NCBI GenBank assembly: GCA_903848645.1
Contig: CAINGU010000082.1
Location: forward strand, 62,001 to 126,000
Direction: 5' to 3'
Origin: an uncultured cyanobacterium
Lineage (GTDB): Bacteria > Cyanobacteriota > Cyanobacteriia > Cyanobacteriales > Nostocaceae
DNA: 64,000 bases
Shown: positions 43,325 to 63,888 of the stretch, piece by piece
Position numbering within the stretch: the stretch's first letter is position 1
Layout of the letters: each line of letters opens with the position of its first letter
Made by a program: the position numbers and the translations under genes
The notes under the pieces: model-generated
Told to the model about the DNA's origin: nothing
Database searches by the model: none
The model's input: only the letters and a program-made list of their open reading frames with translations

Positions 43325-44795
43325 AACTGTGAACCAAGATCAAATTTCCTCTAAATCTATCATTTTGGTAGCTCATTGTTTCATGCTCATAGTTTTGATT
43401 TTATTTTGGTTACTGTATGACCCATTTAGCTTGGAAACTCAATCACTAATTTATCTTTTTAGTTGCTTATTGTGTTTTCAGGCTATTTGGTCATTCTGGT
43501 CTTGGTATATGCTGACAAAAAGCTTGTTTAATCCTTATCTTTTATTCTTTTTGTCGGCATTTTTATTTAACGCTGGTCAGGCACTATTAGAAGTTTTTCA
43601 TCTTAACAAGGCAGGTATTTTAGGACAATTAGATTTTACTTATTTTACGGATGAAACTATAATTAATGCCCTATTCTTAGTAATGTTATCATTAGCTTCG
43701 TGGCATTTAGGGGCATTAATTAGTGTCTCACCCATTCAAGCTATTTATGTAAAAAGTAAAATTCAAGAACAAATACTTTCTTTAAATAGTAAGAATTGTT
43801 ACGATCTTGGTTATTTCTTAATGTGTATATCTTTGTTTCCATCTATTTATGTTCTAAAAAATAATCTTGGAACTGTTATATCTGATGGCTATGCTGGACT
43901 ATACCAAGTAGAAGATGCCACAGGTTTTGCCGCTATTCCTAATATTTTAAGCACTTTTATCGTACCATCTAGTTTTTTCCTCTTAGTCGGAAGTAAGTAT
44001 AAAAATAAGGGAAAAATATTATCAGTCACTATTATATTTATCTACTCAATAATGCAGTTTATTATTGGACAGAGAAATCAAGGAATCATGCCATTGATTA
44101 GCTTTACTTGGCTATGGAATAATTTTGTTCGCCCGTTACCTAAAATTCTTTTGTTGGGTTCAGGTTCTTTAATGATGTTTGTTTTTATTCCGCTAATTGC
44201 AACTACTAGAGATGCCCAATCTCAACACCAGTTCTCCATTGATTTTTTAGTAGAAAGTTTTTCATCTATAGATAATCCTGTAGTTGCAGCTATATCAGAG
44301 ATGGGCAGTTCTATCTTAACAGTTACAGCCACCCTGGAATTAGTTCCTACTACTAAAAATTTCCAACTGGGAGCAGAGTATTTATATGCCTTACTTACCC
44401 TAGTTCCAAATTATTTTGGCAAGGTTCATCCAACCATAGCACGAGGTATTCCTGATCAATGGTTAGTTCAACAAATCAATCCATACTTTGCAATGAACGG
44501 TGGTACGTATGGATTCTCTTTTATTGCTGAAGCTTATCTCAACTTTGGTTGGATAGGAACTCCAATCGCTTTGGCTCTAATGGGATTTATATTTGCAAAT
44601 TTTATCTCATGGGCATCTAGATATACCGAACCCGGAAAAATGGCTTTGCTTGCTAGTTTTATTTCATTTTTCTTGTTCTTTCCCCGTAGTGAATCTGCTC
44701 TTCTAGTCCGTCCCCTGTTCTGGTACTCGTTGATTCCTTACTGGGTTGTATGTTTTTTAAATAAAAGCTCTTTCAAAAATAACAAAATCAGTTGA
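43299..44795 (+). CDS. Wzy-type polysaccharide polymerase
   Basis: 498 residues with about 11-12 membrane segments (AHCFMLIVLILFWLLYD, IYLFSCLLCFQAIWSFWSWY). The large loop between late segments holds IPDQWLVQQINPYFAMNGGT and GFSFIAEAYLNFGWIG, features of the 'O-antigen polysaccharide polymerase Wzy' family. It should join repeat units in the periplasm. It overlaps the GT4 gene by 26 bp and is followed by a repeat block rather than directly by the next gene. Confidence 0.85.
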   Translation: MFMKTNVNKTVNQDQISSKSIILVAHCFMLIVLILFWLLYDPFSLETQSLIYLFSCLLCFQAIWSFWSWYMLTKSLFNPYLLFFLSAFLFNAGQALLEVFHLNKAGILGQLDFTYFTDETIINALFLVMLSLASWHLGALISVSPIQAIYVKSKIQEQILSLNSKNCYDLGYFLMCISLFPSIYVLKNNLGTVISDGYAGLYQVEDATGFAAIPNILSTFIVPSSFFLLVGSKYKNKGKILSVTIIFIYSIMQFIIGQRNQGIMPLISFTWLWNNFVRPLPKILLLGSGSLMMFVFIPLIATTRDAQSQHQFSIDFLVESFSSIDNPVVAAISEMGSSILTVTATLELVPTTKNFQLGAEYLYALLTLVPNYFGKVHPTIARGIPDQWLVQQINPYFAMNGGTYGFSFIAEAYLNFGWIGTPIALALMGFIFANFISWASRYTEPGKMALLASFISFFLFFPRSESALLVRPLFWYSLIPYWVVCFLNKSSFKNNKIS

Positions 44796-50072: not shown

Positions 50073-50408
50073 CTCACCGAATTTTAGATTTTAGATTTTG
50101 GATTAGACATCTTCGGAAAAGAATCTAGGGACAATTCATGAATTGTCCCTACAAGGATTTCATGACTCCTGAATTCTGTTCGATAAAAATATTGACAAAA
50201 TGACCATCTTATCTTGCTGATTTTAGTTATATTTTTTTATAGATTATGAATTGCCAATAACGTACTTTTTCAATCTAAAAATCTACTCAAACAAAAATAG
50301 TTTTACAGCCATAACCACACATCCCTACAGTTATTTTCTGGTAGATAAAAAGGCTGTTCACAATATTTTTTTTGCCATTTTTGTAATTTTTAATTGACAG
50401 AGGTATTC
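50073..50408. other. Spacer with a perfect 24-bp palindrome
   Basis: 336 bp without a gene. At 50127-50150 the arms AGGGACAATTCA and TGAATTGTCCCT meet without a loop, a widespread cyanobacterial palindrome. An ATTTTAGATTTTAGATTTTGG repeat lies near 50081. A promoter for the next genes may lie here. Confidence 0.6.
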
Positions 50409-51071
50409 ATGAAAGCTAGAGATTTACAGAGTGATAGCTATGATTATCGTAGGCATCGTCTAATAAAAATTAGTAGATTTATTAAATCAATATTAGATAG
50501 ATTTGTCGCCGTAATTGCCTTAATTCTTCTTTTTCCTGTCATGCTAGTTGTAGTGATCGCTATTTATTTGCATGACGGTAGCCCAGTTATTTTTAACCAA
50601 CCACGTCCCGGTAAAGATGCGCGGATTTTTAACTTTTACAAATTCCGTACCATGACCAACGATAAGGATGAGAAAGGTAATTTATTACCTGATGAAAAAC
50701 GCCTGAAATCTTTCGGTAAATTTTTGAGAAAAACTAGTTTGGATGAACTTCCTCAACTGTGGAATATTCTCAAGGGTGATATGAGTTTTGTTGGTCCACG
50801 TCCTTTACGTGTGGAGTATCTGGAACTTTATACTCCCGAACAAGCACGACGACATGAAGTATTACCTGGTATCACAGGATTAGCTCAAATCAATGGACGC
50901 AATGCTATTAGCTGGGAAACAAAATTTAAGTTAGACGTTTCGTACATTGACGATTGGAGTCTTGGGTTAGATTTCAAAATCCTCTTGTTAACAGTCTGGA
51001 AAGTTATTAAACGTGAAAACATCAGTCAGGAAGGATATGCAACTGCTGGAGATTTTAAAGGTCAGCTTTAG
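50409..51071 (+). CDS. Initiating sugar-1-phosphate transferase (PglC/EpsL type)
   Basis: 220 residues from the ATG at 50409 (AGAGG 6 bases upstream); an in-frame TTG at 50394 is less likely. It is a monotopic phosphoglycosyl transferase: hydrophobic helix (about 27-48; AVIALILLFPVMLVVVIAIY), FYKFRTMTND, the catalytic Asp-Glu in KTSLDELPQLWNILKGDMSF and VGPRPL. It transfers a sugar phosphate, in the PglC subgroup diNAc-bacillosamine phosphate, to undecaprenyl phosphate, starting the repeat unit. It is short, without the N-terminal membrane domain of WbaP-type proteins. Confidence 0.93.
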   Translation: MKARDLQSDSYDYRRHRLIKISRFIKSILDRFVAVIALILLFPVMLVVVIAIYLHDGSPVIFNQPRPGKDARIFNFYKFRTMTNDKDEKGNLLPDEKRLKSFGKFLRKTSLDELPQLWNILKGDMSFVGPRPLRVEYLELYTPEQARRHEVLPGITGLAQINGRNAISWETKFKLDVSYIDDWSLGLDFKILLLTVWKVIKRENISQEGYATAGDFKGQL

Positions 51072-51100: not shown

Positions 51101-51757
51101 ATGGACAAAGTTGTTATTTTTGGAAACAAGTCTTTTGCAGAAAGTATTCACTTTTATCTCAAGCATGATTCTGAATATGAGATAGTTGGGTTTACTGTTG
51201 ATGAAGACCACATTCAGGCAGAAAGTTTCCATGATTTACCAGTTGTACCCTATCAAAAACTGGAAAAATATTATTCACCCAACGAATACAAATTGTTTAT
51301 TCCTCTTGGTTATCAAAAGCTCAATAAGTTGCGGGCAGAAAAATACTACAACGCTAAAAAAAGGGGATATAGTTTTATTTCCTATATTAGTTCTAAGGCA
51401 TATTATCATGGCACACCAATAGGTGAAAACTGCTTAATTTTGGAAAACAATGTGATCGAACCTTTCACGAACATTGGTAACAACTGTATTCTCACAAGTG
51501 GAAATCATATTGGGCATCACTCTGTCATCAATGATCACTGTTTCATTGCTTCTCAGGTCGTTATTGGTGGTGTATCAAGCGTAGGAGAATACACTTTTAT
51601 TGGTTTGAATGCTACTATCAGAAATCACGTCAAAATCGGCAAAGAAAATATTATTGGTGCGGGATCAATAATTCTTTCTAATACGGAAGATGGGGCTGTT
51701 TACTCTCCAGGAGAAACTGCAAAGTTTGAAGTACCAAGCAATCTAGTGAATATTTAA
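51101..51757 (+). CDS. PglD/NeuD-like sugar acyltransferase, paralog 1
   Basis: 218 residues. An N-terminal Rossmann-like nucleotide-sugar domain (DKVVIFGNKSFAESIHFYLK) precedes a left-handed beta-helix of hexapeptide repeats (about 95-200; IGENCLILENNVIEPFTNIG). The putative catalytic His lies in SGNHIGHHSVINDHCFIASQ. PglD acetylates the C4 amine of UDP-4-amino-4,6-dideoxy-GlcNAc; NeuD acetylates sialic acid. It is closely similar to the protein at 58668-59330. The two differ mainly in the last 40 residues, where the acyl-CoA binds, so they may use different acyl donors or sugars. Confidence 0.88.
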   Translation: MDKVVIFGNKSFAESIHFYLKHDSEYEIVGFTVDEDHIQAESFHDLPVVPYQKLEKYYSPNEYKLFIPLGYQKLNKLRAEKYYNAKKRGYSFISYISSKAYYHGTPIGENCLILENNVIEPFTNIGNNCILTSGNHIGHHSVINDHCFIASQVVIGGVSSVGEYTFIGLNATIRNHVKIGKENIIGAGSIILSNTEDGAVYSPGETAKFEVPSNLVNI

Positions 51758-52107
51758 TAATCTTGAAGATTGCTGTTACCAAATATTATATAAAGCCATC
51801 ATTTCAATAATTTGTAAAATTCGGGGAAGTGAATTTTTTTTAGATACAGCACTTTCCGGTGTTATGAGGTACATATATAGCGGGCAAGACTTGTACTGAG
51901 CTTGTCGATAGCGCAGCGTGGCGTTAGCCATAGTATGCCCGCACTACAAGAGTTTCATAATTCAAGTTTGTACCTCCTTAGAGCGAAATATGCTGTAGTT
52001 GTTGGCTTGAGTTGTCCGCAGATGAATTGATCAATACCAACTTAATTATCTAAATATCTCATTCATACCCAGAAGATTTGTGTCAGATTTACAAGGATAC
52101 ATGAATT
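51758..52107. other. Spacer with the second copy of the 77-bp repeat
   Basis: 350 bp. Contains the repeat at 51845-51967 and nothing else recognised. An AAGGA at 52093-52097 precedes the NRPS-like start. Confidence 0.6.
51845..51967. repeat. 77-bp direct repeat, copy 2, with a 46-bp insert
   Basis: 51845-51889 equals 47866-47910 and 51936-51967 equals 47911-47942. The 46 bases between (51890-51935) sit in the loop of the GCGGGCA/TGCCCGC hairpin. Copy 2 carries a fossil of the glycosyltransferase C-terminus with no gene attached. Confidence 0.92.
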
Positions 52108-55100
52108 ATGTCCAGCTTTTCCTGTTTTGTTGTCGGCGATGGTATTCTGCCATTAAGTTGCTTGGAAATCCTCTTGGAAAGAGGTTGGCAAGTGCTGGGA
52201 GTGTGTTCAACAAATTCATTGCAAAAGTGGTCTCAGGAACATAGCATCACCCATGCTGCTTCTCGATCTATTTTTCACAAAACACTTCTGGGTGTTGAGT
52301 ACGATTATCTTTTTAGCATCAATAACACCCAATGGATCATTCCTGGGGATGTAATTGGACGGGCAAAAAAAGCTACTATTAACTACCACGACTCGCCGTT
52401 ACCAAAATATGCTGGTTTGTATGCAACTTCTTGGGCTTTGCTAAACGGTGAAACTGAATATGCTGTTACCTGGCACGAAGTGATCTCAAAAATTGATGCT
52501 GGGCGAATATTCAAACAAAAATCCGTGCCGATTTTGGCAGATGATACAGCATTTAGCCTGAATGTTAGGTGCTTTAATGCAGGAGTTGACTCATTCAACG
52601 AATTGGTGCAAGAACTGGCAATGGATCTGGTTCAGCCTTATCCTCAAGACTTCTCTCAACGGAGTTATTTTGGACATGGAGATCGCCCAGATGCCGCCTC
52701 TGTGATCTCCTATGATGTTAGTAGTAAAGATATCTGTCATCTGGTAAAAGCATTAGATTTTGGTCTAACTCGCAATGAACTTGGTCTGGCCAAAACCTGG
52801 CTACCAGGAGGGGTGATTGTTGTGGGGTCTGCCCGGTTAATGACATCTGATTACGGTACTCCTGGACAAGTGCTGAAACTAGATTCCCAAGGGATGTGTA
52901 TCGCTACTATAGATGGGGCTGTGCATTTAGGTGGGTTAAGCACGTTAACTGGAAAGGATATCTCCCTAAAACAGTTGAAAGAAGATTATGGTGTGCGCGT
53001 CGGTGACATCTTACCTGCAATTGATACCAAGACAAGAAAGACAATTAGTGAGCGGAATGCTGCCTTATGTCGTCATGAACAAGCTTGGGTAAAACACTTG
53101 ATGCAGGTTGCTCCTTTTCAGCATCCCTATTTACCATTGGCAACATCTAGTCAAAAACTAGATATCTCCATGCAGTGCTACTCTATTTTGCCGTTAACAA
53201 AGCAGGTAGAAGCGAAATCTTTGTTATCCATGTTTGCTGCTTACTGTGCGCGACTGACAACAGAAATGGAATTTGACCTGGGACTGCAAACCGATTCACA
53301 GCGCAGTATTGCTCCCGAAATATTTGCCCAACGAGTTCCAATTCGCGTGAAAACTCAGGCTCATGAGTCTTTCAGTGACTTTAAAAAGCGATTTGAAACA
53401 GCCTTAGATGATGCTTCTCGTCTGGGTAGCTTTAGACGTACCATCTGGAGACGTTATCCACAACTGCACGATGTCTGGGATGGGCATAGCTATGATAATT
53501 TTCTGCCGGTAGCCATCGTCCTTGCTACCTCCCCCGACCAATTGGATTGGCACTCTATGGGAGCGTCTATGGCCTTGGTGGCTTATGAAGATGGGAGTTT
53601 ACCAGAATTAATACATACGGGGTTACTCAATGACACTGACTCTAACGCCATTGTTCAGCAACTTCAGAGTTTAATAACCGCTTGTATAGAAAATCCTCAA
53701 CAATCTCTGCATCAACTACCACTGCTCTCCGTTGCCGAACAGCAGCGAATTTTAGTGGATTGGAACAATACAGCACAACCTTTCCCCACAGATAAATGTA
53801 TTCATGATTTATTTGCGGAACAACTAGAGCGGATTCCTGATGCGATCGCTGTGGCCTTTCAAGACCGGGAATTAACTTACCGAGAATTAAACGCACAAGC
53901 CAATCAATTAGCCCACTATCTACGACTACAGGGGGTTGCTCCCGATGTGTTAGTGGGTCTTCATCTAGAAAGATCATTAGAAATGATGATCGGGTTATTG
54001 GCAATTCATAAAGCCGGAGGGGCATATCTTCCCCTTGATCCTGATTTTCCGCAAGATCGTCTGACTTTCATGGTGCAAGATTCCCAAGCAACTGTCATCT
54101 TAACCCAGGAAAAACTAATTTCCCATCTCGTTGTTGACCATGATGTCCGCATTATCCCCATTGATAGGATGTGGGGAGAAATTACCCAACAACCCACCAC
54201 AAATCCCCACAGTGGGGTTAAACCCGAAAACCTGAGTTATATCATCTACACCTCCGGTTCTACTGGCAAGCCCAAGGGGGTGATGGTAGAACATGAGAAT
54301 GTGGTTAACTTTTTCACGGGGATGGATGCTGTCATTGACCATGAACCACCGGGAGTATGGTTAGCAGTTACAAGTTTATCTTTTGATATTTCCGTCTTGG
54401 AACTGTTCTGGACATTGGCCAGGGGATTTAAAGTAGTTATCTATAACCCCAAACAAGAACGGCAGCAGACGACTGCCCAGCCCATAGCTGTAAATAAATT
54501 AAAACATACCGATTTTAGTCTCTTTTACTTCTCTAGCCATGAGAAAGGTCAAGATGCGGCGGAAAAGTATCGGCTGTTGTTTGAAGGAGCTAAATTTGCT
54601 GATGCCAACGGGTTTAAAGCAGTTTGGACTCCTGAACGTCATTTTCATGCCTTTGGTGGCTTGTTCCCCAATCCTGTAGTTAGCAGTGCAGCGATCGCCA
54701 CGACTACCAAACATATCCAAATTCGTGCAGGTAGCTGTGTTTCTCCTTTACATAACACAGTGCGACTCACGGAAGATTGGTCTTTAGTAGATAACTTTTC
54801 TCACGGTCGGGTGGGGATATCCTTTGCTGCTGGTTGGCAACCCAATGACTTTGTACTGTGTCCCCAAGCCTTTGAAAACCGCAAGGAAGTTATGTTTCAG
54901 CAAGTTGAGGAGGTACGGGCGTTATGGCGTGGAGAAACCCTCACCTATCCCAACGGTAAGGGAGAAATCATCGAAGTACAAACCCTGCCTCGTCCCATTC
55001 AACCTAACCTCCCCGTCTGGATTACAGCCGCCGGCAACCCGGAAACCTTCCAAATGGCAGGAGCGAGAGGCTTTAATATTTTGACTCACTTACTGGGGCA

Positions 55101-56724
55101 AAGTTTGGACGAGTTAGCCGCCAAAATTGCCATTTATCGGCAAGCATGGCAAGAGAACGGACATTCTGGACAGGGAATTGTCAGCCTCATGATCCATACT
55201 TTTGTGGGAGAAAGTGATGATACTGTCAAAGAACTGGTGCGTCAGCCCATGCGGCAATACTTAGCTAGTTCCCTTGATTTAATCAAACTTGCAGCCTGGT
55301 CTTTCCCCACTTTCAAGCAGAAAACCACCAACGACAAGGGACAATTTTCCGTATCCCATCTATCTGACCCAGATATGAATGAGGTACTAGATTTTTCCTT
55401 TGAACGCTACTTTAAAACCAGTAGTTTGTTTGGAACTGTGGATACTTGTTTGCAAATGGTTGATCGGATTAAAGCCATTGGTGTCAATGAAATTGCCTGT
55501 CTGATTGACTATGGGGTAGATACGGATACGGTGCTATCTCAACTACCTTTACTCAATGAGTTGAAAACACGGGCTAATTACCAACCTACCACTGAATCTA
55601 TCGGTGATCTGATCAAACGTCATCAGGTGACACATCTGCAATGTACCCCTTCTATGGCTGGTTTATTGATGGCAGAAACCGCTAACCGCGAAGCTATGGG
55701 GCAACTTCGTCAGATGATGGTTGGTGGTGAAGCCTTGACTGAAGCCTTGGCAAATCAACTTCAGCAGATTATTCCTGGACAGATTCACAATATGTATGGT
55801 CCGACAGAAACCACTATCTGGTCAGCAACCCATACTCTAGCTGAAGTCAATGGAGTTGTTCCCATTGGTCGTCCTATTGCCAATACTGAATTATACATTT
55901 TGGACAAGAATCAGCAACCTGTGCCTGTTGGTATTGCCGGTGAGCTATATATTGGCGGTAAAGGGGTGACACGGGGATATTTGCACAGACCGGAGTTAAC
56001 CCAGGAACGATTTGTACCTAATCCTTTTAGTACCGATACTACTGCCCGTTTATACCGGACTGGCGACCTAGTTCGCTACGGAATGAATGGCAATGTGGAA
56101 TTCTTGGGACGCATGGACTTCCAGGTAAAAGTGCGGGGACACCGGATTGAACTAGGAGAAATTGAGACAATTTTAAGCCGCCATGAAGCAGTTCGGGAAG
56201 CGGTGATTATAGTTCGTGAAGATATGCCTGGGGATAAGCGCCTTGTGGCCTATCTACTGCCACAGCCGGGATATCAACCATCTCATGCAACTATGCGAGA
56301 ATACTTACTCTTTCTATTGCCTGAGTATATGGTTCCTTCTAACTTTGTTGTCCTGGAGAAATTTCCCCTCACTCCTAATCATAAAGTTGACCGCAAGGCA
56401 TTACCTATGCCGATGTTAGTCTCTCCGGCTAGGGATGCGGTGAATACAATAATATCTGCAAATCTTGTAGAGAAAACTCTCATAGAAATCTGGCAAAAAG
56501 TGCTTCAGATTTCTCAGGTGGGAACTCAAGACAATTTCTTTCACTTGGGAGGTAACTCTTTAGTTGCGGTGACTTTAGTTGCGGAAATTCGCGCAGTATT
56601 GAATGTGGATTTACCCTTGATTAGTTTGTTTCGATCTCCAACTATAACTGATCTCGCCAAGCAGATTTCATTGCCATCTTTTACGAATAAATCTAATGAT
56701 ATAGCGATCCTAAATAAGATGTGA
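52108..56724 (+). CDS. NRPS-like protein: formyltransferase, half C, A split by luciferase-like monooxygenase, PCP
   Basis: 1538 residues. Residues 1-310: formyltransferase with the catalytic triad Asn92-His94-Asp130 (INYHDSPLPKYAGLY; KIDAGRIF) and its C-terminal barrel. About 320-545: the second half of a condensation domain without HHxxxDG, ending in the usual linker LSVAEQQRILVDWNNTAQ. About 560-795: adenylation N-part (YIIYTSGSTGKPKGVMVEH). About 799-1150: MupA/Atu3671-type FMN-dependent luciferase-like monooxygenase (HTDFSLFYFSSHEKGQDAAE; AVWTPERHFHAFGG). About 1155-1450: rest of the A domain (MYGPTETTIW, YRTGDLVRYG, NHKVDRKALP). About 1460-1525: carrier domain with Ser1484 (FFHLGGNSLVAVTLV). 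No thioesterase. The pocket reads D-I-L-Q-M-G-M-I-W-K, close to the glycine code. In this locus it probably makes an acyl group for a sugar. Confidence 0.92.
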   Translation: MSSFSCFVVGDGILPLSCLEILLERGWQVLGVCSTNSLQKWSQEHSITHAASRSIFHKTLLGVEYDYLFSINNTQWIIPGDVIGRAKKATINYHDSPLPKYAGLYATSWALLNGETEYAVTWHEVISKIDAGRIFKQKSVPILADDTAFSLNVRCFNAGVDSFNELVQELAMDLVQPYPQDFSQRSYFGHGDRPDAASVISYDVSSKDICHLVKALDFGLTRNELGLAKTWLPGGVIVVGSARLMTSDYGTPGQVLKLDSQGMCIATIDGAVHLGGLSTLTGKDISLKQLKEDYGVRVGDILPAIDTKTRKTISERNAALCRHEQAWVKHLMQVAPFQHPYLPLATSSQKLDISMQCYSILPLTKQVEAKSLLSMFAAYCARLTTEMEFDLGLQTDSQRSIAPEIFAQRVPIRVKTQAHESFSDFKKRFETALDDASRLGSFRRTIWRRYPQLHDVWDGHSYDNFLPVAIVLATSPDQLDWHSMGASMALVAYEDGSLPELIHTGLLNDTDSNAIVQQLQSLITACIENPQQSLHQLPLLSVAEQQRILVDWNNTAQPFPTDKCIHDLFAEQLERIPDAIAVAFQDRELTYRELNAQANQLAHYLRLQGVAPDVLVGLHLERSLEMMIGLLAIHKAGGAYLPLDPDFPQDRLTFMVQDSQATVILTQEKLISHLVVDHDVRIIPIDRMWGEITQQPTTNPHSGVKPENLSYIIYTSGSTGKPKGVMVEHENVVNFFTGMDAVIDHEPPGVWLAVTSLSFDISVLELFWTLARGFKVVIYNPKQERQQTTAQPIAVNKLKHTDFSLFYFSSHEKGQDAAEKYRLLFEGAKFADANGFKAVWTPERHFHAFGGLFPNPVVSSAAIATTTKHIQIRAGSCVSPLHNTVRLTEDWSLVDNFSHGRVGISFAAGWQPNDFVLCPQAFENRKEVMFQQVEEVRALWRGETLTYPNGKGEIIEVQTLPRPIQPNLPVWITAAGNPETFQMAGARGFNILTHLLGQSLDELAAKIAIYRQAWQENGHSGQGIVSLMIHTFVGESDDTVKELVRQPMRQYLASSLDLIKLAAWSFPTFKQKTTNDKGQFSVSHLSDPDMNEVLDFSFERYFKTSSLFGTVDTCLQMVDRIKAIGVNEIACLIDYGVDTDTVLSQLPLLNELKTRANYQPTTESIGDLIKRHQVTHLQCTPSMAGLLMAETANREAMGQLRQMMVGGEALTEALANQLQQIIPGQIHNMYGPTETTIWSATHTLAEVNGVVPIGRPIANTELYILDKNQQPVPVGIAGELYIGGKGVTRGYLHRPELTQERFVPNPFSTDTTARLYRTGDLVRYGMNGNVEFLGRMDFQVKVRGHRIELGEIETILSRHEAVREAVIIVREDMPGDKRLVAYLLPQPGYQPSHATMREYLLFLLPEYMVPSNFVVLEKFPLTPNHKVDRKALPMPMLVSPARDAVNTIISANLVEKTLIEIWQKVLQISQVGTQDNFFHLGGNSLVAVTLVAEIRAVLNVDLPLISLFRSPTITDLAKQISLPSFTNKSNDIAILNKM

Positions 56725-56960
56725 ACGCGCAAACGTACCGTAGGCATAAATCTCTTCTTTCTCTACATCTGTGATCTCTGTGCTTCTGCGGTATACTCCG
56801 CGAACGTTAAAAAAACCTATTTCTTGATCAAGATAGTGCCAAAATGACAAGATTATTTCCACAGATTTAGGGTACATTATTTAGCAATTATTCATGAATA
56901 ATTGCAGATAGTAATTTACTGGTTAGAGCATTAGATAAATATAGTTTGATAGGAGGAAAT

Positions 56961-57215
56961 ATGATAGACCGCCAAGAAATACTGGAAATTTTAGGGGAAG
57001 CTATGGAAATCAGCAGTGCAAATCTTACGGAAGAAACTGTACTAGAAAACTTAGGAGATGCGTGGGATTCAGTGGCTATATTATCAGTAATATCCATGAT
57101 TGATAGTTATGCTAATCGCCCTATTCCTGTCAATGCTATTGTCGAGAGTAAAACGGTTAAAGACCTCATTGATCTTGTCTGTACAAGTGATACTCAAATA
57201 ATTGGTTGTAGGTAA
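56961..57215 (+). CDS. Acyl carrier protein
   Basis: 84 residues from the ATG at 56961, which follows AGGAGG (56951-56956); the in-frame TTG at 56946 is rejected. It is a helical carrier protein with the phosphopantetheine Ser37 in NLGDAWDSVAILSV (WDS instead of the usual DSL). It carries an acyl group as a thioester. It differs from housekeeping AcpP and lies between the NRPS-like gene and KAS III, so it should serve this pathway. Confidence 0.85.
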   Translation: MIDRQEILEILGEAMEISSANLTEETVLENLGDAWDSVAILSVISMIDSYANRPIPVNAIVESKTVKDLIDLVCTSDTQIIGCR

Positions 57216-57553
57216 TAACAATAAATAACCGATATATGTGGAGTACAACAGAAACATTGCAAAGTTTTACTATTATGATTCAACACTTCCTTGGAGGATG
57301 TTTTAAAAGTTACTCATGGTGTATCAAATATTTTTAAACCCCTTAATTACCAGTAAAAATGGGAATTTTGACTGTATTTCCCCTTTAGAAAGAGGGGTTA
57401 GAAGGGAATGGTTTCGCCACGTAAGCTATCCGCAAGTGCTTAAAGTTATGACCCAAAACTTTTCAAACAACCTCTTAGATAGAGAAGAGATTATAAACAT
57501 AATCAAAAGAGCATTTAAAGAAAAAAAATCTATTCTCCATTTAGGAAAATACT
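57216..57553. other. Spacer before the KAS III gene
   Basis: 338 bp. An open frame from 57316 runs into the KAS III gene in another frame; it has no family resemblance and contains a CCCCTTTAGAAAGAGGGG palindrome, so I do not call it. Confidence 0.5.
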
Positions 57554-58606
57554 ATGAACCAAATGATGATTCCCAACCTCAGTATGCGAAGTATAGCAAC
57601 TGCTTTACCTGAAAAAACTGAATTTAATTATGAATTATCTGATGTCTTAAATTATGAAGAAATAGAACGTCTCAGTCAAAAAATTGGCATTTACAGTAGA
57701 AGAGTTGCTGAAGATGGAATAACAGCTTTTGATCTAATGTACCAAGCTGTAGAAAATCTTGTTAAAACTACATCTCTTCCTAAAGAAGATATAGACTGTA
57801 TTGTATGTGTTACACAGACTCCAGATTATTTAATTCCTGGAAATTCATTCCTCTTATGTCATAAATTAGGATTAAAAACCAGCATTTTGACACTAGATAT
57901 AAATGCTGGCTGTGCGGGGTTTACACATGGTCTAATTGTCCTGGGAAGATTAATTAATAATGGTGATATTAAATGCGGATTGTTGGTTGTTGGAGATACA
58001 CTTACAAGATTGGTAAATCCCAAAGATAAAACTGAGCGATTGTTATTTGGTGATGGTGCGGCTGCGTGTGTTTTAGAATTTGATCAAAAAGGTAAAGGGC
58101 TAACAGCTTGCTGGCGAACTATTGCTGATGATTATGATAAGCTAATTGTTCCAGCCGGTGGCATGAGAAAGCCAACTACTGAAGAAACAAACATTACTAC
58201 TTTAAGAAAAAATGGAATCTACAGAAGCGAGAATAATTTTGCTATGGATGGTGCTGCTGTTTTTTCATTTTCAATTCAAGAAGTACCCGATATTGTCAAT
58301 TTTGCGATTGAAAGTTGTAATTTAAGCACTGACGATATTGATTTATTTATATTTCACCAAGCCAATAAATTTATGGTTGATTCTATCCGGACAAAATTAA
58401 ATCTTAGTGAAGAAAAAGTTCCCATTTTGGTAGAAGGCATAGGTAATACAAGTTGTGCATCCATACCAATTGCTATTAGTCGCTATGCCTTAAATCAAGG
58501 AATTAATAAAATTAGTGGTCGGCTATGTTTAACAGGGTTTGGGACAGGCTTGTCTCTGAGTAGCATCATTATTGAAGTAGAAGATTTAATTTTAACGCCT
58601 ATGTAA
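57554..58606 (+). CDS. 3-oxoacyl-ACP synthase III (KAS III)-like
   Basis: 350 residues, thiolase fold. The Cys-His-Asn triad is complete: Cys120 in LDINAGCAGFTHGL, His near 266 in FIFHQANKFMVDS, Asn near 297 in EGIGNTSCASIPIA. KAS III condenses an acyl-CoA with malonyl-ACP to give a 3-oxoacyl-ACP; related enzymes move acyl groups from thioesters onto amines or hydroxyls. With the adjacent ACP it could make a short acyl chain (for example acetoacetyl) for an amino sugar. No dedicated ketoreductase gene is present. Confidence 0.92.
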   Translation: MNQMMIPNLSMRSIATALPEKTEFNYELSDVLNYEEIERLSQKIGIYSRRVAEDGITAFDLMYQAVENLVKTTSLPKEDIDCIVCVTQTPDYLIPGNSFLLCHKLGLKTSILTLDINAGCAGFTHGLIVLGRLINNGDIKCGLLVVGDTLTRLVNPKDKTERLLFGDGAAACVLEFDQKGKGLTACWRTIADDYDKLIVPAGGMRKPTTEETNITTLRKNGIYRSENNFAMDGAAVFSFSIQEVPDIVNFAIESCNLSTDDIDLFIFHQANKFMVDSIRTKLNLSEEKVPILVEGIGNTSCASIPIAISRYALNQGINKISGRLCLTGFGTGLSLSSIIIEVEDLILTPM

Positions 58607-58667
58607 TTATTTTAATTAGGTCTGATTGAGAAATATGTACAAATTTCATTTACATAGGTAAGCAAAA

Positions 58668-59330
58668 ATGGATAAGGTAGTTTTGTTTGGTAATGGACAA
58701 ATAGCAAGTGTAGTTTACTATTATCTAACTTATGATTCACCGTATGAAGTTGTAGGATTTACTGTTGATCGCTCTCACATACAAGAAGAAAGTTTATTTG
58801 GTCTACCTATAGTGCCTTTTGAAGATGTCCAGTCCATATTTCCACCAGACGAATACAAAATGTTTGTCTCAATTAGCTATCGACAAGTTAATAAACTGAG
58901 AGCCGCTAAATATCATGAAGCAAAAGAGAAGGGATACAGATTAATTAGTTATATCAGTTCTAAAGCCAGCACATGGACTGGATTAGTTATAGGTGATAAC
59001 TGCTTCATTATGGAGAACAACGTAATTCAACCATTTGTGGAAGTTGGAAACAACGTCATTATTTGGAGTGGTAATCATATTGGACATCATACAGTTATTA
59101 AGGATCACTGTTTTCTTGCTTCCCATGTTCTCATCTCCGGTTATGTCACTGTCGAACCATACTGTTTTTTTGGTGGTAATTCAACAGTTAGAGACGGAAT
59201 TGTAATTGCAAAAGAGTCTGTAATTGGTGCAGGATCGTTGATTTTAAAGAGTACGAAAGAGATGGGTGTCTATATTGGTAGTCCAGCCCAGTTGTTTCCG
59301 CAAAGCAGTAATCAATTAAAGCGAATTTAA
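58668..59330 (+). CDS. PglD/NeuD-like sugar acyltransferase, paralog 2
   Basis: 220 residues, same two-domain plan as the protein at 51101: Rossmann-like start (DKVVLFGNGQIASVVYYYL), then hexapeptide beta-helix (IGDNCFIMENNVIQPFVEVG) with SGNHIGHHTVIKDHCFLASH. Roughly half the residues match paralog 1 by eye, most strongly in the sugar-side half (VGFTVDxxHIQ, ISYISSKA). The C-terminal end (YIGSPAQLFPQSSNQL) is the typical acetyltransferase form, whereas paralog 1 differs there. It likely N-acylates a 4-amino sugar. It lies 61 bp after KAS III on the same strand. Confidence 0.88.
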   Translation: MDKVVLFGNGQIASVVYYYLTYDSPYEVVGFTVDRSHIQEESLFGLPIVPFEDVQSIFPPDEYKMFVSISYRQVNKLRAAKYHEAKEKGYRLISYISSKASTWTGLVIGDNCFIMENNVIQPFVEVGNNVIIWSGNHIGHHTVIKDHCFLASHVLISGYVTVEPYCFFGGNSTVRDGIVIAKESVIGAGSLILKSTKEMGVYIGSPAQLFPQSSNQLKRI

Positions 59331-59370
59331 ATTAGTAGTTTACTATCCATTTTGAATAAACCACACTCCT

Positions 59371-60447
59371 ATGATGAAAATTAAAATCATTGATGTAGCT
59401 GATCCATTGTGGCTGGAAACGCTCAGAAAATTACGGCATGATATTTACCATTTACCTGAATATTTATTGTTAGAAGCAAAGCGGATTCAAGCTGTGCCTG
59501 AAGCGATAATTATTAGCCATCATGACAAAATATTTTTCATTCCCTATCTACTGCGATCTTGTGATGTTGATATTCATGGAGAATCAACCATAGGAGAGAT
59601 TTTTGATATTATTTCACCCTATGGCTATTCTGGAATTTTATTGAGTGAGACAGCTATGCAATCAGTAGATTTCTTCAATCTAGCAATGCAGCAACTCAAA
59701 GAATTTATGAATTCCAGAAAAATTTGTTCTGCTTTTTTCCGTCTTCATCCAATTCTTAATCAGAAATTGAGTGACATTTTTGCATCTGAAATTTGTCAAA
59801 TTAATGGTAACACAGTTTCAATTAATTTGAAGCTTTCTGAAGCAGAAATTTGGCAGCAAACAAAGCCTGAACATCGAAATAAAATTAACCGATGTAAACG
59901 ACGTGGTTTTCAGGCTAAAATAGTTGATTTCAAACATAATATTGACAATTTCATGGCTATTTATCAGGAAACAATGGATAGAGTAGGAGCAAGCAAATAC
60001 TATTATTTTGATGATAATTACTTTCGCCAGCTTTCTCTATTAGAACAATTAATTCATTTATGTATTGTTGAACAGGATAACCAAATTGCTTGCGTTGGTT
60101 TATTTACAGAATGTAGTGGTATTGTTCAATATCATTTAGGAGGAACAAAGTCCGATTTTCTCAAGGAAGCTCCTAGTAAGTTGATGTTTGATTATGTTCG
60201 CTTTTGGGCAAAAGAGCATGGTAATGAGGTACTTCACTTGGGAGGAGGAGTTGGAAGTGTTCAAGATAATCTTTATCGCTTTAAGGCTGGTTTCTCTCAA
60301 CAGAGACATACTTTTTCAACTATACGCTTAATCACAGATGAAGATAGTTACTATCATCTAGTCAACTTGCAAGCTAAATACTTAAATATCCATCCAGAAC
60401 AGCTATTAAAATCAGAGTTCTTTCCGGCTTATCGTGCTTCTCATTAA
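59371..60447 (+). CDS. FemAB/GNAT-type acyltransferase
   Basis: 358 residues with two GNAT-like halves. The second half has the FemAB pattern: KPEHRNKINRCKRRGFQAKI, then CVGLFTECSGIVQYHLGGTK, APSKLMFDYVRFWAKEHGNE and LHLGGGVGSVQDNLYRFKAG. Fem proteins transfer amino acids, often glycine, from aminoacyl-tRNA to lipid II amines; relatives in polysaccharide loci acylate sugars. Next to a carrier-bound glycine-type NRPS it is a candidate for moving the acyl group onto the amino sugar. It lacks the coiled-coil arm of true FemA. Membrane segments are absent. Confidence 0.82.
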   Translation: MMKIKIIDVADPLWLETLRKLRHDIYHLPEYLLLEAKRIQAVPEAIIISHHDKIFFIPYLLRSCDVDIHGESTIGEIFDIISPYGYSGILLSETAMQSVDFFNLAMQQLKEFMNSRKICSAFFRLHPILNQKLSDIFASEICQINGNTVSINLKLSEAEIWQQTKPEHRNKINRCKRRGFQAKIVDFKHNIDNFMAIYQETMDRVGASKYYYFDDNYFRQLSLLEQLIHLCIVEQDNQIACVGLFTECSGIVQYHLGGTKSDFLKEAPSKLMFDYVRFWAKEHGNEVLHLGGGVGSVQDNLYRFKAGFSQQRHTFSTIRLITDEDSYYHLVNLQAKYLNIHPEQLLKSEFFPAYRASH

Positions 60448-60538
60448 TACGAAAATTAATTTATTTTGTCAGTGCGATACCCTCACTCAGTGCTTACTTT
60501 ATCGCCTTGTTACTGTTAGTAGATAAATAAAAAAAATT

Positions 60539-61672
60539 ATGAATAAACCGATTCTCCTCTCGACTCCCCATATAGGAAACCAAGAATTAGCATTCGTTAA
60601 AGAAGCATTTGATACTAATTGGATTGCCCCTGTCGGTCCTCATGTTGATGCTTTTGAACAGGAGTTTTGTCAAGTAACTGGTGCTAGTTATGCGGCTGCT
60701 GTGAGTTCGGGAACTGCGGCTTTACATTTAGCTTTGCAATTAGTTGGAGTCACATCAGGAGATGAAGTTTTTTGTTCTACTTTAACCTTTGCAGCTACCG
60801 CTAATCCGATTACTTATTTAGGTGCAAAACCAGTTTTTATTGATAGCGATCGCATATCCTGGAATATGAACCCAAACCTGTTGCAGGAAGCTTTACAAAA
60901 ACGCGCCTATTTTGGTAAATTGCCCAAAGCAGTTGTAGTTGTACATCTTTATGGTCAAAGTGCAGATATTGAACCAATTCTCCAAGTTTGTAATCAATAT
61001 AATATTCCTCTCATTGAAGATGCAGCAGAAGCTTTAGGGGCTACCTACAAAGGGCTTTCTCCTGGTACTTTTGGGAAGTTTGGTATCTACTCTTTTAATG
61101 GTAATAAAATCATTACTACTTCTGGTGGAGGAATGTTAGTTTCTGATGATGATCAATTAATTGCCAAAGCCAAATTTCTAGCCACCCAAGCCCGTGATCC
61201 CGCACCCCATTATCAACATTCAGAAATAGGATATAACTATCGTCTTAGTAATGTTTTAGCAGGAATTGGTCGTGGTCAATTACAAGTTTTAAATGAACGA
61301 GTAGCAGCTAGACGACGCAACTTTGAAATTTACCAATCTGCTTTGGGAAATCTACCGGGAATAGAATTTATGCCCGAAGCTAATTTTGGAGATTCTACTC
61401 GATGGTTAACGGCTTTAACAATCACCCCAGAAGCTTTTGGTGCAGATAGAGAATACATCCGTATTCAACTTGCTAAACAGCAAATTGAAGCTCGTCCTGT
61501 GTGGAAACCATTGCATCTCCAACCTGTATTTTCTGAATGTGAATATATTGGTGCTGAAGTAGCTGAAGATTTATTTGTCCATGGTCTTTGTTTACCTTCT
61601 GGCTCTAATTTAACAGATGAAGATTTAGTCAGAGTAATTGATGCTATTAAAGCCATTTACTCTCCAAGTTGA
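60539..61672 (+). CDS. DegT/DnrJ/EryC1 sugar aminotransferase (PglE-like)
   Basis: 377 residues, PLP fold I. The phosphate-binding SSGTAALHLALQL is near 56-68, the Asp partner in IPLIEDAAEALGATYKG and the Schiff-base Lys near 189 in SFNGNKIITTSGGG. These enzymes aminate a keto-sugar nucleotide; the NGNKIITTSGGG form is typical of UDP-4-keto-6-deoxy-GlcNAc aminotransferases such as PglE. It pairs with the dehydratase at 37830 and PglD-like proteins to give a 4-amino-4,6-dideoxy sugar. 91 bp separate it from the FemAB-like gene. Confidence 0.94.
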   Translation: MNKPILLSTPHIGNQELAFVKEAFDTNWIAPVGPHVDAFEQEFCQVTGASYAAAVSSGTAALHLALQLVGVTSGDEVFCSTLTFAATANPITYLGAKPVFIDSDRISWNMNPNLLQEALQKRAYFGKLPKAVVVVHLYGQSADIEPILQVCNQYNIPLIEDAAEALGATYKGLSPGTFGKFGIYSFNGNKIITTSGGGMLVSDDDQLIAKAKFLATQARDPAPHYQHSEIGYNYRLSNVLAGIGRGQLQVLNERVAARRRNFEIYQSALGNLPGIEFMPEANFGDSTRWLTALTITPEAFGADREYIRIQLAKQQIEARPVWKPLHLQPVFSECEYIGAEVAEDLFVHGLCLPSGSNLTDEDLVRVIDAIKAIYSPS

Positions 61673-61701: not shown

Positions 61702-63888
61702 ATGGAATTACAAGAATCTTCTATATCTCTAGAAAAATATTGGACGATCCTCAAACGTCGTTGGTTTGCCACTTTATCTATTACTTTTTGTGTTTTTCTG
61801 ACATCACAGTTAGCTTTATTTTTCAAGAAACCTATTTATTTAGCAGAAGGTAAATTGCGTTTTCAACGAAGTAATACTACTTCTTCTCTCACTGGATTAG
61901 GGGCAGAAATAGGCAAATTAGATCCTCTAATGCAGCAGGGTAATCCTATTAATACAGAGGTAGAAGTAATCCGTTCTCTTCCTCTTATAGTAATAACTAT
62001 TAACAGATTAAGTCTCAAAGATAATAAAGGTAATGTTTTAAAAACTAAGAAATTTCTCAAACAACTTACTGTCAAAGAAGTTAAAGGTGCTGATGTTCTT
62101 CAAATTACCTACAAGGATACTAACCCAAAAACTGCTGCCTACGTTGTAAATGAGCTAATCAAAGTTTATTTAGAACAAAATGTATCTTCACGCAGAGCCG
62201 AAGCAGCCGCAGCCAGGAAATTCATCGAAAACCAACTACCAAAAGCCGAATTAGTAGTCCGTCAAGCCGAATCAGAATTAGCAACTTTTAAAGAGCAAAA
62301 TAAAGTTGTTTCTTTGCAGGAAGAAGCCACTAAAGGAGTAGAAGTTATTAGTGATTTACAAATAAAAATTAACGATGCTCAATCTCAATTAGCTAATTTT
62401 AAATCACAATCTCAAGCAATTAGTCAACAATTAAGAATGCAGCCTGACAAGGCATTAGTAGTCACTTCTGTCAGCCAAATTTCTGGAGTCCAAGATATTC
62501 TTAAAGAAATTCAACAGCTACAATCCCAATTAGCCAATAAACAAACAGTTTTACAGAATGATCATCCACAAATTATAGATTTACAAGATAAAATTATTTC
62601 TTTAAATAGGGTTATTGATAACAGAATAACCCAGGCTGTAGGTAAAAATAACCTATCACCACAAAGTAACTTACAATTGAGTGCTTTACAACAACAACTC
62701 TCTACTAGACTCGTAGAATTAGAATCTAACCGTAAAGGTTTAAAAAGTCAAGCTGATTCTTTGTTAAAGTTACAATCTGCGTATAAACAAAGATTGAATA
62801 ACTTACCCAGATTGGAAGAAAATCAGCGGCAGTTAGAACGTAAACTACAAGCAGCACAAGCTACCTATTCTCTGTTGCTTCAGAAGCTACAAGAAAGTAG
62901 AATAGCTGAAAATCAAAATTTAGGTAATGCTACTAAGCTATCCGACGCTCAAATTCCTGATGAACCTACTTTATCTGCTATGGTTTCCTATTTAAGTTCA
63001 GGATTACTTAGTATATTGGCAGCTTTGATTACTATATATATTTTAGAAATAAAAGATAAATCTATCAAGACTGTTGATGAAGCTAAAGAATTACTAGGAT
63101 TGACTTTGTTAGGAGTTATTCCTACAGCTATTAAGTGGAAAAGATCCTCTAACATTTATGAAGAAAATGAATCCTATAGTCAAAGGATTATCATTCGAGA
63201 TTTTCCTCGTTCTTCCATTAGTGAATCTTACCGAATGTTGAGGGCAAATCTTAATTTTATTAGTGCTGACAAAGAGTTAAAAGTTATTGTTGTCACCAGT
63301 TCTGTACCCAAAGAAGGTAAATCAACAGTAGCGGCTAATTTAGCTACAGCAATGGCACAAATGGATCGACAAGTTTTATTAATAGATGGAGATTTGCACC
63401 GTCCAGTCCAGCATAAAATTTGGGATTTGATTAATAATCAAGGTTTAAGTAATTTGATTTTCAAACACGAGGAAATTAGCAATACGATTAAAAAAGTGAT
63501 GCCTAACTTAGATGTTTTGACTTCTGGTATAGTTCCTCCTAGTCCTGCATCTCTTCTCGACTCACAGCGAATGGCTACTTTAATGGCAAATTTTGCTGAT
63601 AAATATGACTTCGTAATTGTTGATGCACCAGCTTTAAATGTGGCTGCTGATGCTGTTACTTTAGGACAAATGGCTGATGGAGTTTTATTAGTAGTTCGTC
63701 CTGGTGTCGTTGATTCTGTAAATGCTAATTTTGCTAAAGAACTATTAGCAAAATCTGGTCAAAATGTCTTAGGACAAGTGGTTAATGGTGTGATTCTCAA
63801 AAACGAACCTCACAGCTATTACTACTTTCAAGAAGAAGACTATTTACAAAAAATCAATCAAGAGTCTCAAGAACCTGTAAAAGTTTAA
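61702..63888 (+). CDS. Wzc-type chain-length determinant fused to BY-kinase
   Basis: 728 residues. Wzz domain between two membrane segments (about 20-41 and 428-447) with a long periplasmic coiled coil (about 160-400; AAARKFIENQLPKAELVVRQ). The cytoplasmic tyrosine kinase starts at about 500: Walker A SVPKEGKSTVAANLATAM, Walker A' VLLIDGDLHRPVQ, Walker B FVIVDAPAL. The C-terminus has a tyrosine cluster (HSYYYFQEEDYLQ) for autophosphorylation. It controls polymer length and export in the Wzx/Wzy pathway. The partner phosphatase (Wzb) and outer-membrane Wza are not in the window. Confidence 0.95.
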   Translation: MELQESSISLEKYWTILKRRWFATLSITFCVFLTSQLALFFKKPIYLAEGKLRFQRSNTTSSLTGLGAEIGKLDPLMQQGNPINTEVEVIRSLPLIVITINRLSLKDNKGNVLKTKKFLKQLTVKEVKGADVLQITYKDTNPKTAAYVVNELIKVYLEQNVSSRRAEAAAARKFIENQLPKAELVVRQAESELATFKEQNKVVSLQEEATKGVEVISDLQIKINDAQSQLANFKSQSQAISQQLRMQPDKALVVTSVSQISGVQDILKEIQQLQSQLANKQTVLQNDHPQIIDLQDKIISLNRVIDNRITQAVGKNNLSPQSNLQLSALQQQLSTRLVELESNRKGLKSQADSLLKLQSAYKQRLNNLPRLEENQRQLERKLQAAQATYSLLLQKLQESRIAENQNLGNATKLSDAQIPDEPTLSAMVSYLSSGLLSILAALITIYILEIKDKSIKTVDEAKELLGLTLLGVIPTAIKWKRSSNIYEENESYSQRIIIRDFPRSSISESYRMLRANLNFISADKELKVIVVTSSVPKEGKSTVAANLATAMAQMDRQVLLIDGDLHRPVQHKIWDLINNQGLSNLIFKHEEISNTIKKVMPNLDVLTSGIVPPSPASLLDSQRMATLMANFADKYDFVIVDAPALNVAADAVTLGQMADGVLLVVRPGVVDSVNANFAKELLAKSGQNVLGQVVNGVILKNEPHSYYYFQEEDYLQKINQESQEPVKV

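Follow-up and report, generated by a model that had tools for sequence, protein, structure and literature searches.

Why should a surface-polysaccharide locus of a cyanobacterium carry a nonribosomal peptide synthetase (NRPS) gene beside the gene for a sugar N-acyltransferase, and what would the synthetase contribute to the glycan? The question is raised by a 64,000-nucleotide stretch of DNA, here called the window, from an uncultured pond-water member of the Nostocaceae (assembly GCA_903848645.1, contig CAINGU010000082.1, abbreviated C82, positions 62001-126000; part of a 5.4-Mb genome). The two genes, which we call unit A, encode PglD1 (51101..51757, + strand), a left-handed beta-helix N-acyltransferase, and a synthetase of 1538 aa (52108..56724, + strand). 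They are followed by unit B, which consists of an acyl carrier protein (ACP), a FabH-like 3-ketoacyl-ACP synthase III (KASIII) and a second PglD-like protein. The original prediction had treated all of these as one system that decorates a bacillosamine-like sugar with carrier-borne acyl groups. Comparison of the window with related genomes leads us to a tentative scheme, to which we give a little less than an even chance, in which PglD1 would transfer a formylglycyl or formyl-hydroxyglycyl group made by the synthetase to a 4-amino sugar, with unit B separate and optional.

All of the genes named in the original prediction were recovered as intact open reading frames (ORFs) on the + strand, with start positions that matched or were a few codons off, and domain searches bore out the whole inventory. 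Orthologues in related genomes preserve the layout, and the pairwise dN/dS values against the window are low, being 0.15-0.20 for the synthetase (six relatives), 0.16-0.22 for PglD1 (six) and 0.19-0.24 for KASIII (four). The gene set is therefore not a chance assemblage, and the dN/dS values indicate that the three genes are under purifying selection.

PglD1 and the synthetase occur as a pair

The window was compared with a sample of 60 genomes (the window genome plus 59 relatives; the named orthologues in the genus are from Dolichospermum and Anabaena strains, so that the window genome most probably belongs to that group) and with a phylum sample of 386 genomes. A scan of genome contigs returned 13 loci, of which 8 duplicated loci already counted and were excluded. 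The five new loci were L101-L104, from Chamaesiphon metagenome-assembled genomes (MAGs) and one uncultured cyanobacterium (together "Chamaesiphon-type"; stretches of 6.1, 12.3, 14.4 and 20.5 kb), and L095, from an Acaryochloridaceae MAG with 15.5 kb visible. Together with 11 Dolichospermum-group loci these gave 16 loci in which pairing could be assessed, the locus of G022, a genome of another genus, being left out because its contig starts inside the synthetase.

PglD1 and the synthetase are adjacent in 12 of the 16 loci and have one gene between them in three, so that the pair is found in 15. PglD1 lies upstream in all 11 Dolichospermum-group loci, as the immediate neighbour in eight and separated by a DUF362 gene in three (G004, G005 and G009, that is, loci L057, L054 and L062), and it directly precedes the synthetase in 4/4 Chamaesiphon-type loci. 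A DUF362 gene, 66% identical and apparently in two frames, also lies near the synthetase of the distant L095 (1723-2801). In the phylum sample, 6 of 386 genomes have a close formyl domain (at least 64% identity), and exactly these six also have a close PglD1 (at least 70%); they belong to one genus and hence are not independent. In the sample of 60, the formyl domain is at least 66% identical in 11 genomes, every one in the genus. More distant formyl-domain matches (32-35%) fall in long NRPS frames of G041, G144, G332 and G413 and beside NRPS genes in G010. The locus of G008 (L105) retains PglF (86%), PglE (93%) and the chain-length regulator Wzc (81%), yet lacks both PglD1 and the synthetase. 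In place of the pair, L105 has an unannotated 393-aa gene, a PhyH dioxygenase and a FemAB-like gene.

The synthetase-linked PglD1 proteins also differ from other PglDs in sequence. They form one clade with support of 100/100, and the tail VY(S/A)PG(E/G)T near the C-terminus is present in 15/15 of them versus 0/13 other PglDs. It replaces the GxPA tail, which presumably contacts coenzyme A and which is found in 5/5 canonical PglDs, in the second PglD of the window and in 3/7 unlinked homologues. As only three of those seven homologues carry it, the absence of GxPA is not special by itself. PglD1 passes the family model (TIGR03570, 170.1 bits; cut-off 160.8), and its catalytic His region is conserved. 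The predicted structure (mean predicted local distance difference score, pLDDT, of 67, and below 50 in the tail) is too weak for judging the tail. PglD1 matched 13 plasmid records, the best at 48.6% identity. These comparisons give good support to a pairing between PglD1 and the synthetase. The open-licence literature, covered as titles and abstract openings on chosen terms, contained no mention of a synthetase-sugar acyltransferase pairing, and we found no precedent for unit A, whereas unit B has precedents.

A synthetase with a glycine-type code and an embedded oxygenase

The synthetase is recognised by Formyl_trans_N, by AMP-binding in two pieces around TIGR04020, by AMP-binding_C and by PP-binding. 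Its domains are a formyltransferase (about aa 1-320), a condensation-like remnant (about 340-555), an adenylation domain (560-1432) and a carrier (1457-1519). The adenylation domain is split by a luciferase-like monooxygenase (aa 803-1153; TIGR04020, 502 bits; cut-off 244) inserted between motifs A4 and A5, after A4 and before the next specificity position. This confirms an oxygenase that the original prediction had named in its "formyl-NRPS-monooxygenase" and had not built on. No thioesterase domain was found in the protein by domain search. Pfam searches with 20 proteins of the 34-64 kb region found no downstream condensation module or second NRPS gene (the rest of the genome was not searched for NRPS) and no ABC-type exporter.

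Residues ~340-555 were considered as a working condensation domain and rejected, as the protein contains no HHxxxDG and the region aligned weakly (E 0.067) with just the final 40 positions of PF00668; the equivalent region of G013 gave no PF00668 match. The predicted model of residues 1-565 was poor (pLDDT 56.3), and its 50 best Foldseek matches were all to the formyl domain. At 1763 aa, the synthetase ORF of L059 (G001) exceeds the other ten in length by about 170-240 aa. When it is aligned to the window protein, the best match is confined to aa 679-1520, which indicates a difference ahead of that part.

The specificity residues of the window synthetase are DILQMGMIWK. The code DILQMG(M/L)(I/V)WK, which we take to be a glycine signature, is conserved in 11/11 genus orthologues, and in this the guess of glycine in the original prediction finds support. 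The form DILQ(M/L)G(M/L)(I/V)W is present in 27/27 aligned adenylation domains (11 from the genus, four Chamaesiphon-type, L095, G022 and 10 other family members), the last residue being unaligned in three, and DILQ(L/M/F/A)GMIWK is present in 6/6 alphaproteobacterial domains. The code was not found as text in the papers searched for it. The assignment of glycine thus rests on the signature and on the two papers cited below that treat oxygenase-bearing glycine modules, LgrA module 2 having given no classical code upon alignment.

Two known types of module resemble the synthetase. Having formyltransferase, adenylation and carrier domains in a single chain is the arrangement of formylating NRPS initiation modules such as that of LgrA (linear gramicidin), which is the best solved sequence match. 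Unlike LgrA, the window synthetase has an embedded oxygenase, a condensation-like remnant, a formyl domain closer to ArnA and a sugar-acyltransferase neighbour, and no next module was seen in the locus. In myxothiazol and melithiazol synthesis, the glycine modules (MtaG and MelG) share the presumed glycine code and the position of the oxygenase between A4 and A5. Formyl domains are very scarce in NRPSs, three cases being described in the relevant part of a review (PMC8949500). According to the passages of PMC10204066 and PMC11342130 that treat myxothiazol and melithiazol, an oxygenase embedded in such a glycine domain adds a hydroxyl group at the alpha carbon; one of the two papers places the insertion between a4 and a5. 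In the same passages a thioesterase follows the module, whereas the window synthetase is free-standing and has none. The closest solved relative of the embedded oxygenase is PuwE, which is assigned to production of a 2-hydroxy acyl product in the pertinent section of PMC4219810. The embedded oxygenase probably alters the glycyl unit.

The pair sits between bacillosamine-type genes

As judged from its genes, the locus is of the Wzx/Wzy type for surface polysaccharide and includes a bacillosamine-type route to an amino sugar (PglF, PglE, PglD and a polyprenyl-phosphate sugar transferase, PGT). The PglF/FlaA1-like nucleotide-sugar 4,6-dehydratase (37830..39848, + strand; PF02719, 398.7 bits, with CoA_binding_3) scores 200 on the PseB equivalog model against a cut-off of 407.75 bits, and an orthologue of 86-89% identity lies upstream in 8/8 synthetase-bearing genus relatives whose contig extends to it. 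The PglE/LegC-type nucleotide-sugar 4-aminotransferase (60539..61672, + strand) matches PF01041 (DegT, 336 bits) and, below the cut-off of 420, TIGR04181 (LegC, 400.6 bits). In 9/9 genus loci with contig reaching both (the window plus eight; G001 and G011 end early), the synthetase lies between PglF and PglE. An amino-sugar acceptor is proposed mainly on the strength of this flanking. G022 adds a second genus, as PglE (82%) and Wzc (62%) come immediately after its synthetase (75%). Co-occurrence with amino-sugar genes, which had been set beforehand as the check on the original prediction, thus holds in the genus and, for PglE, in G022; no recognisable PglF or PglE lies near the synthetase in the four Chamaesiphon-type loci or in L095. 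The broader claim of carrier-bound acyl groups near a bacillosamine-type pathway is supported.

The remaining polymer genes, all on the + strand, are a Wzx-like flippase (40906..42147; PF01943, 54.1 bits), a Wzy-like polymerase (43299..44795; PF14296, 171.8 bits), the PglC/WcaJ-type PGT (50394..51071, alternative start 50409; PF02397, 221.5 bits) and, at the end of the locus, a Wzc-like chain-length regulator/tyrosine kinase (61702..63888; TIGR01007, 173.8 bits). No close Wzc is present in G002, G006, G010 or G014 (best 40-43%). Of the 22 larger ORFs upstream of about 37 kb, nine were run against Pfam, and these have chiefly housekeeping functions (EF-Tu, EF-G, glutamate synthase and Tex among them). 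A FemAB/GNAT-like acyltransferase precedes PglE (59371..60447, + strand; weak PF13480, Acetyltransf_6, 26.8 bits, cut-off 22). Among the genus loci searched its only other occurrence is in G008 (54%), itself without orthologues of the synthetase and KASIII, and the synthetase loci of the eight relatives reaching PglE gave no match; FemAB is tied to neither unit. A LysA-like pyridoxal-phosphate decarboxylase and a PylC-like ATP-grasp protein lie between the synthetase and PglE in L054 (G005), L057 (G004; there before the ACP), L062 (G009) and L063 (G013), which suggests yet another amide decoration.

The bacillosamine pathway (PglF/PglE/PglD/PglC) is thus matched by a dehydratase, an aminotransferase, a PglD-fold transferase and a PGT in the window locus. 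The locus departs from that pathway in PglD1, which has neither the GxPA tail nor the GAGGHAK start of the canonical PglDs compared, and in the predicted donor, a carrier-bound amino-acid derivative rather than acetyl-CoA.

ACP, KASIII and PglD2 form a separate, optional unit

Unit B comprises ACP1 (56961..57215; PP-binding, 23.9 bits, cut-off 20.8; orthologues of 74-83% in eight relatives), KASIII (57554..58606; Cys, His and Asn read in place; orthologues of 78-92% in 8/15 genus relatives) and the N-acyltransferase PglD2 (58668..59330; TIGR03570, 188.9 bits), which lies outside the synthetase-linked clade. A weak candidate for the remnant of a second carrier, ACP2 (57433..57549), matches G007 ACP2 at 14 of 27 aa in a targeted search, with E values of 0.03-0.45 over the whole window. 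All four are on the + strand.

KASIII of at least 78% identity is found in 9/60 genomes, all genus members, and is present in five of the six phylum-sample genomes with PglD1 and the synthetase. Of the 11 genus synthetase loci, nine have ACP and KASIII; the other two, G009 and G013, lack the second PglD as well. That PglD directly follows KASIII in 8/8 KASIII loci with enough contig. As ACP, KASIII and the second PglD are present or absent as a block, and the synthetase is kept without them, we treat the synthetase and ACP/KASIII as two units, and the single system of the original prediction does not stand.

Six of the nine KASIII loci (G001, G003, G007, G011, G012 and G015) have a reductase and an AMP-ligase between ACP and KASIII, and these six plus G004 carry a second carrier protein. 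The families were assigned by Pfam on the G012 copies, except that the second carrier went unrecognised there and was read from the sequence. The reductase and ligase are missing from the site in the window, G004 and G005. A short-chain dehydrogenase/reductase (SDR) had no match at the window site, and no close copy of the ligase was found elsewhere in the genome; the best match was rejected as a substitute, being only 28% identical. Near the window synthetase there were no convincing remnants of DUF362, SDR or ligase. PglD2 of the window is 25% identical to the canonical PglD of about 208 aa that fills this slot in relatives, and the ACP/KASIII unit is shorter in the window than in most of them. 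Unit B looks partly eroded in the window genome and would need the help of ordinary fatty-acid enzymes. The predicted role of the unit is to acylate an amino sugar with a short chain, either beta-oxo or beta-hydroxy.

Carrier-borne acylation near amino-sugar genes seems to recur, as in G113 and G277, small-genome members of the phylum, KASIII (and in G113 also ACP) lies beside a PglD1-like protein and an aminotransferase. By reading, the small-genome phylum loci L133-L136 have KASIII clusters with aminotransferase and probable sugar-isomerase genes; a PglD1-like protein is also in the cluster of L133, and ACP and a PglD1-like protein are in that of L134. Searches of PHROGs with ACP and FemAB returned nothing.

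The original prediction had considered the use of both NRPS and KASIII/ACP to be new. This stands, in our searches, for the PglD1-synthetase pair. For unit B it does not, as the parts of PMC7874193 and PMC4875605 on flagellin glycosylation islands describe sets of ACP, 3-oxoacyl-ACP reductase and AMP-ligase, and the corresponding part of PMC9676051 describes QuiNAc4NHb, the sugar of Acinetobacter baumannii qhbCB/gdr, with a 3-hydroxybutanoyl amide on N4 of a bacillosamine-type sugar. QuiNAc4NHb is a model for unit B, with the difference that the terms "peptide synthetase" and "acyl carrier" are absent from the main text of PMC9676051. The flagellin islands have a carrier, a reductase and a ligase in common with the fuller unit B of relatives, and differ in having, in the parts describing these islands, LuxC/LuxE where KASIII and PglD are found here; the ligase and a local reductase are missing in the window.

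Relatives in alphaproteobacteria

The synthetase matched 89 plasmid records, two Legionella plasmids being among the matches listed. Eight loci were examined: six of the seven listed "MupA/Atu3671 family" records and two others. The six alphaproteobacterial loci (L181, L182 and L184-L187; Parasedimentitalea, two Ruegeria, Shinella, Aminobacter and Paracoccus) encode synthetases of 1530-1556 aa, 38.9-43.2% identical to that of the window over most of the length in five and in two pieces of 47.8% and 32.5% in the sixth. In 6/6 the gene next to the synthetase, or the next but one, encodes a type I polyketide synthase (PKS); a family 2 glycosyltransferase lies between the two in 4/6 and a phosphopantetheinyl transferase (PPTase) alongside in 3/6. 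Polysaccharide-type genes lie near all six. The Ruegeria conchae PKS is one module with a thioesterase domain, and the annotation of L186 has a DegT-type aminotransferase at the edge of the stretch. The two remaining plasmids carry large NRPS genes, one being conjugative with sulfate/dioxygenase genes and one glycosyltransferase, the other having them beside transposases.

A thioesterase-less family of free-standing formyl/glycine-adenylation/oxygenase/carrier synthetases, spread over two phyla and dedicated to surface glycans, would supply an oxidised N-formylglycyl group to PglD1 in cyanobacteria or to a type I PKS and glycosyltransferase in alphaproteobacteria. A secondary-metabolite module would thereby have been turned into a source of sugar decorations. 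We regard so broad a role as somewhat unlikely.

Discussion

In the route that we propose, a PPTase (one is present in the genome) would arm the synthetase carrier, the adenylation domain would load glycine and the formyltransferase domain would N-formylate it from formyl-tetrahydrofolate. The embedded flavin oxygenase would then hydroxylate the alpha carbon, as reported for relatives on carrier-bound glycine. PglD1 would off-load N-formyl-alpha-hydroxyglycyl (or N-formylglycyl) onto the 4-amine of UDP-4-amino-4,6-dideoxy-GlcNAc formed by PglF and PglE, and PGT, Wzx, Wzy and Wzc would incorporate the decorated sugar into the polymer.

Several observations weigh against this route, of which the acyl structure and the receiving amine would be the least certain steps. 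The glycine code did not emerge in its classical form from the LgrA module 2 alignment. PglD1 lacks the canonical N-terminal GAGGHAK stretch, which leaves its nucleotide-sugar partner unsure, and the locus has a single 4-aminotransferase for two PglDs. No PglF or PglE match lies near the pair in the 6-20.5 kb of the four Chamaesiphon-type loci (the rest of those genomes was not searched), and the six alphaproteobacterial stretches gave no PglE match and a sole, weak PglD match (27%, L182). The L095 synthetase (68%) has no PglD1 in the 15.5 kb seen, where the surroundings read as a peptide cluster. The window PglD1 groups with G012/G015-type copies, while its synthetase is closest to those of G005 and G013 (85%), discordant affinities pointing to a pair reshuffled by recombination between the two genes. 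The affinities of the formyl domain and a reported cleavage of hydroxylated product are further such points and are taken up with the alternatives below.

The synthetase could instead make a diffusible small molecule or a starter, with PglD1 an ordinary acetyltransferase and the two neighbours through history. This would agree with ten family-level relatives of the same oxygenase-in-adenylation layout (56-60% identical in the oxygenase), whose neighbours read, with no domain search, as polyketide or peptide synthases, and with the L095 copy, beside genes read as condensation, cyclisation/adenylation and oxidase. The closer synthetases, however, are single-module proteins without a thioesterase, paired with PglD1 in 15 of 16 loci and absent together with it from G008; the linked PglD1s are one clade with a private tail; and neither a second NRPS gene nor an exporter turned up among the proteins run. 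We consider this alternative unlikely.

It is improbable, in our estimate, that the sugar amine is the direct substrate of the formyl domain, as it is for ArnA, WbkC and FdtF, with the glycyl group going elsewhere, for example via the FemAB-like protein. The formyl domain is indeed nearer to the sugar formyltransferases than to the LgrA domain: its profile matches ArnA, FdtF, WlaRD and WbkC at 1e-14 to 1e-15 (ArnA and FdtF about 2e-15) versus 4e-6 for LgrA, and its top Foldseek matches are Fmt and ArnA. N-acylation of glycine rather than of the sugar would fit L102-L104, whose synthetases lack the oxygenase and by reading (only L102 was Pfam-run) also have a shortened formyl domain, and G022, where the sequence ahead of the adenylation domain reads as the end of a condensation domain. 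FemAB, moreover, is missing from the eight relatives' loci noted above.

We find it very improbable that the oxygenase cleaves an N-formyl-hydroxyglycyl thioester, with formamide leaving and PglD1 transferring a glyoxylyl group. Such cleavage is the reported fate of alpha-hydroxylated glycine in the myxothiazol and melithiazol modules, in the passages of PMC10204066 and PMC11342130 on them, but solanimycin is described in PMC10204066, in the part concerned, as retaining hydroxyglycine uncleaved, and a formyl group made and then discarded would be wasteful. Least probable of all is a single system in which a common acyl chain is assembled by the synthetase together with the ACP/KASIII set: both units share a locus in 9/11 genus members and a type I PKS attends all six alphaproteobacterial synthetases, but G009 and G013 have an intact synthetase with no ACP/KASIII match in the locus, and each unit has a PglD of its own.

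Amides of this general kind have chemical counterparts. E. coli O121 and S. dysenteriae 7 have N-acetylglycyl viosamine, a glycine-derived acyl group on a 4-amino-6-deoxy sugar, for which we know of no formyl-oxygenase synthetase. A literature search on Pseudomonas viosamine brought up nothing relevant. Bacterial surface sugars that bear an aminoacyl or hydroxyacyl amide are known chemically, but to our knowledge the donors are often undefined, and we know of no polysaccharide with an N-formyl-hydroxyglycyl amide. If PglD1 does transfer a synthetase-made formylglycyl or formyl-hydroxyglycyl group, peptide-synthetase chemistry would have a defined and testable route into polysaccharides. Synthetases of this type could then be misfiled as orphan metabolite clusters.

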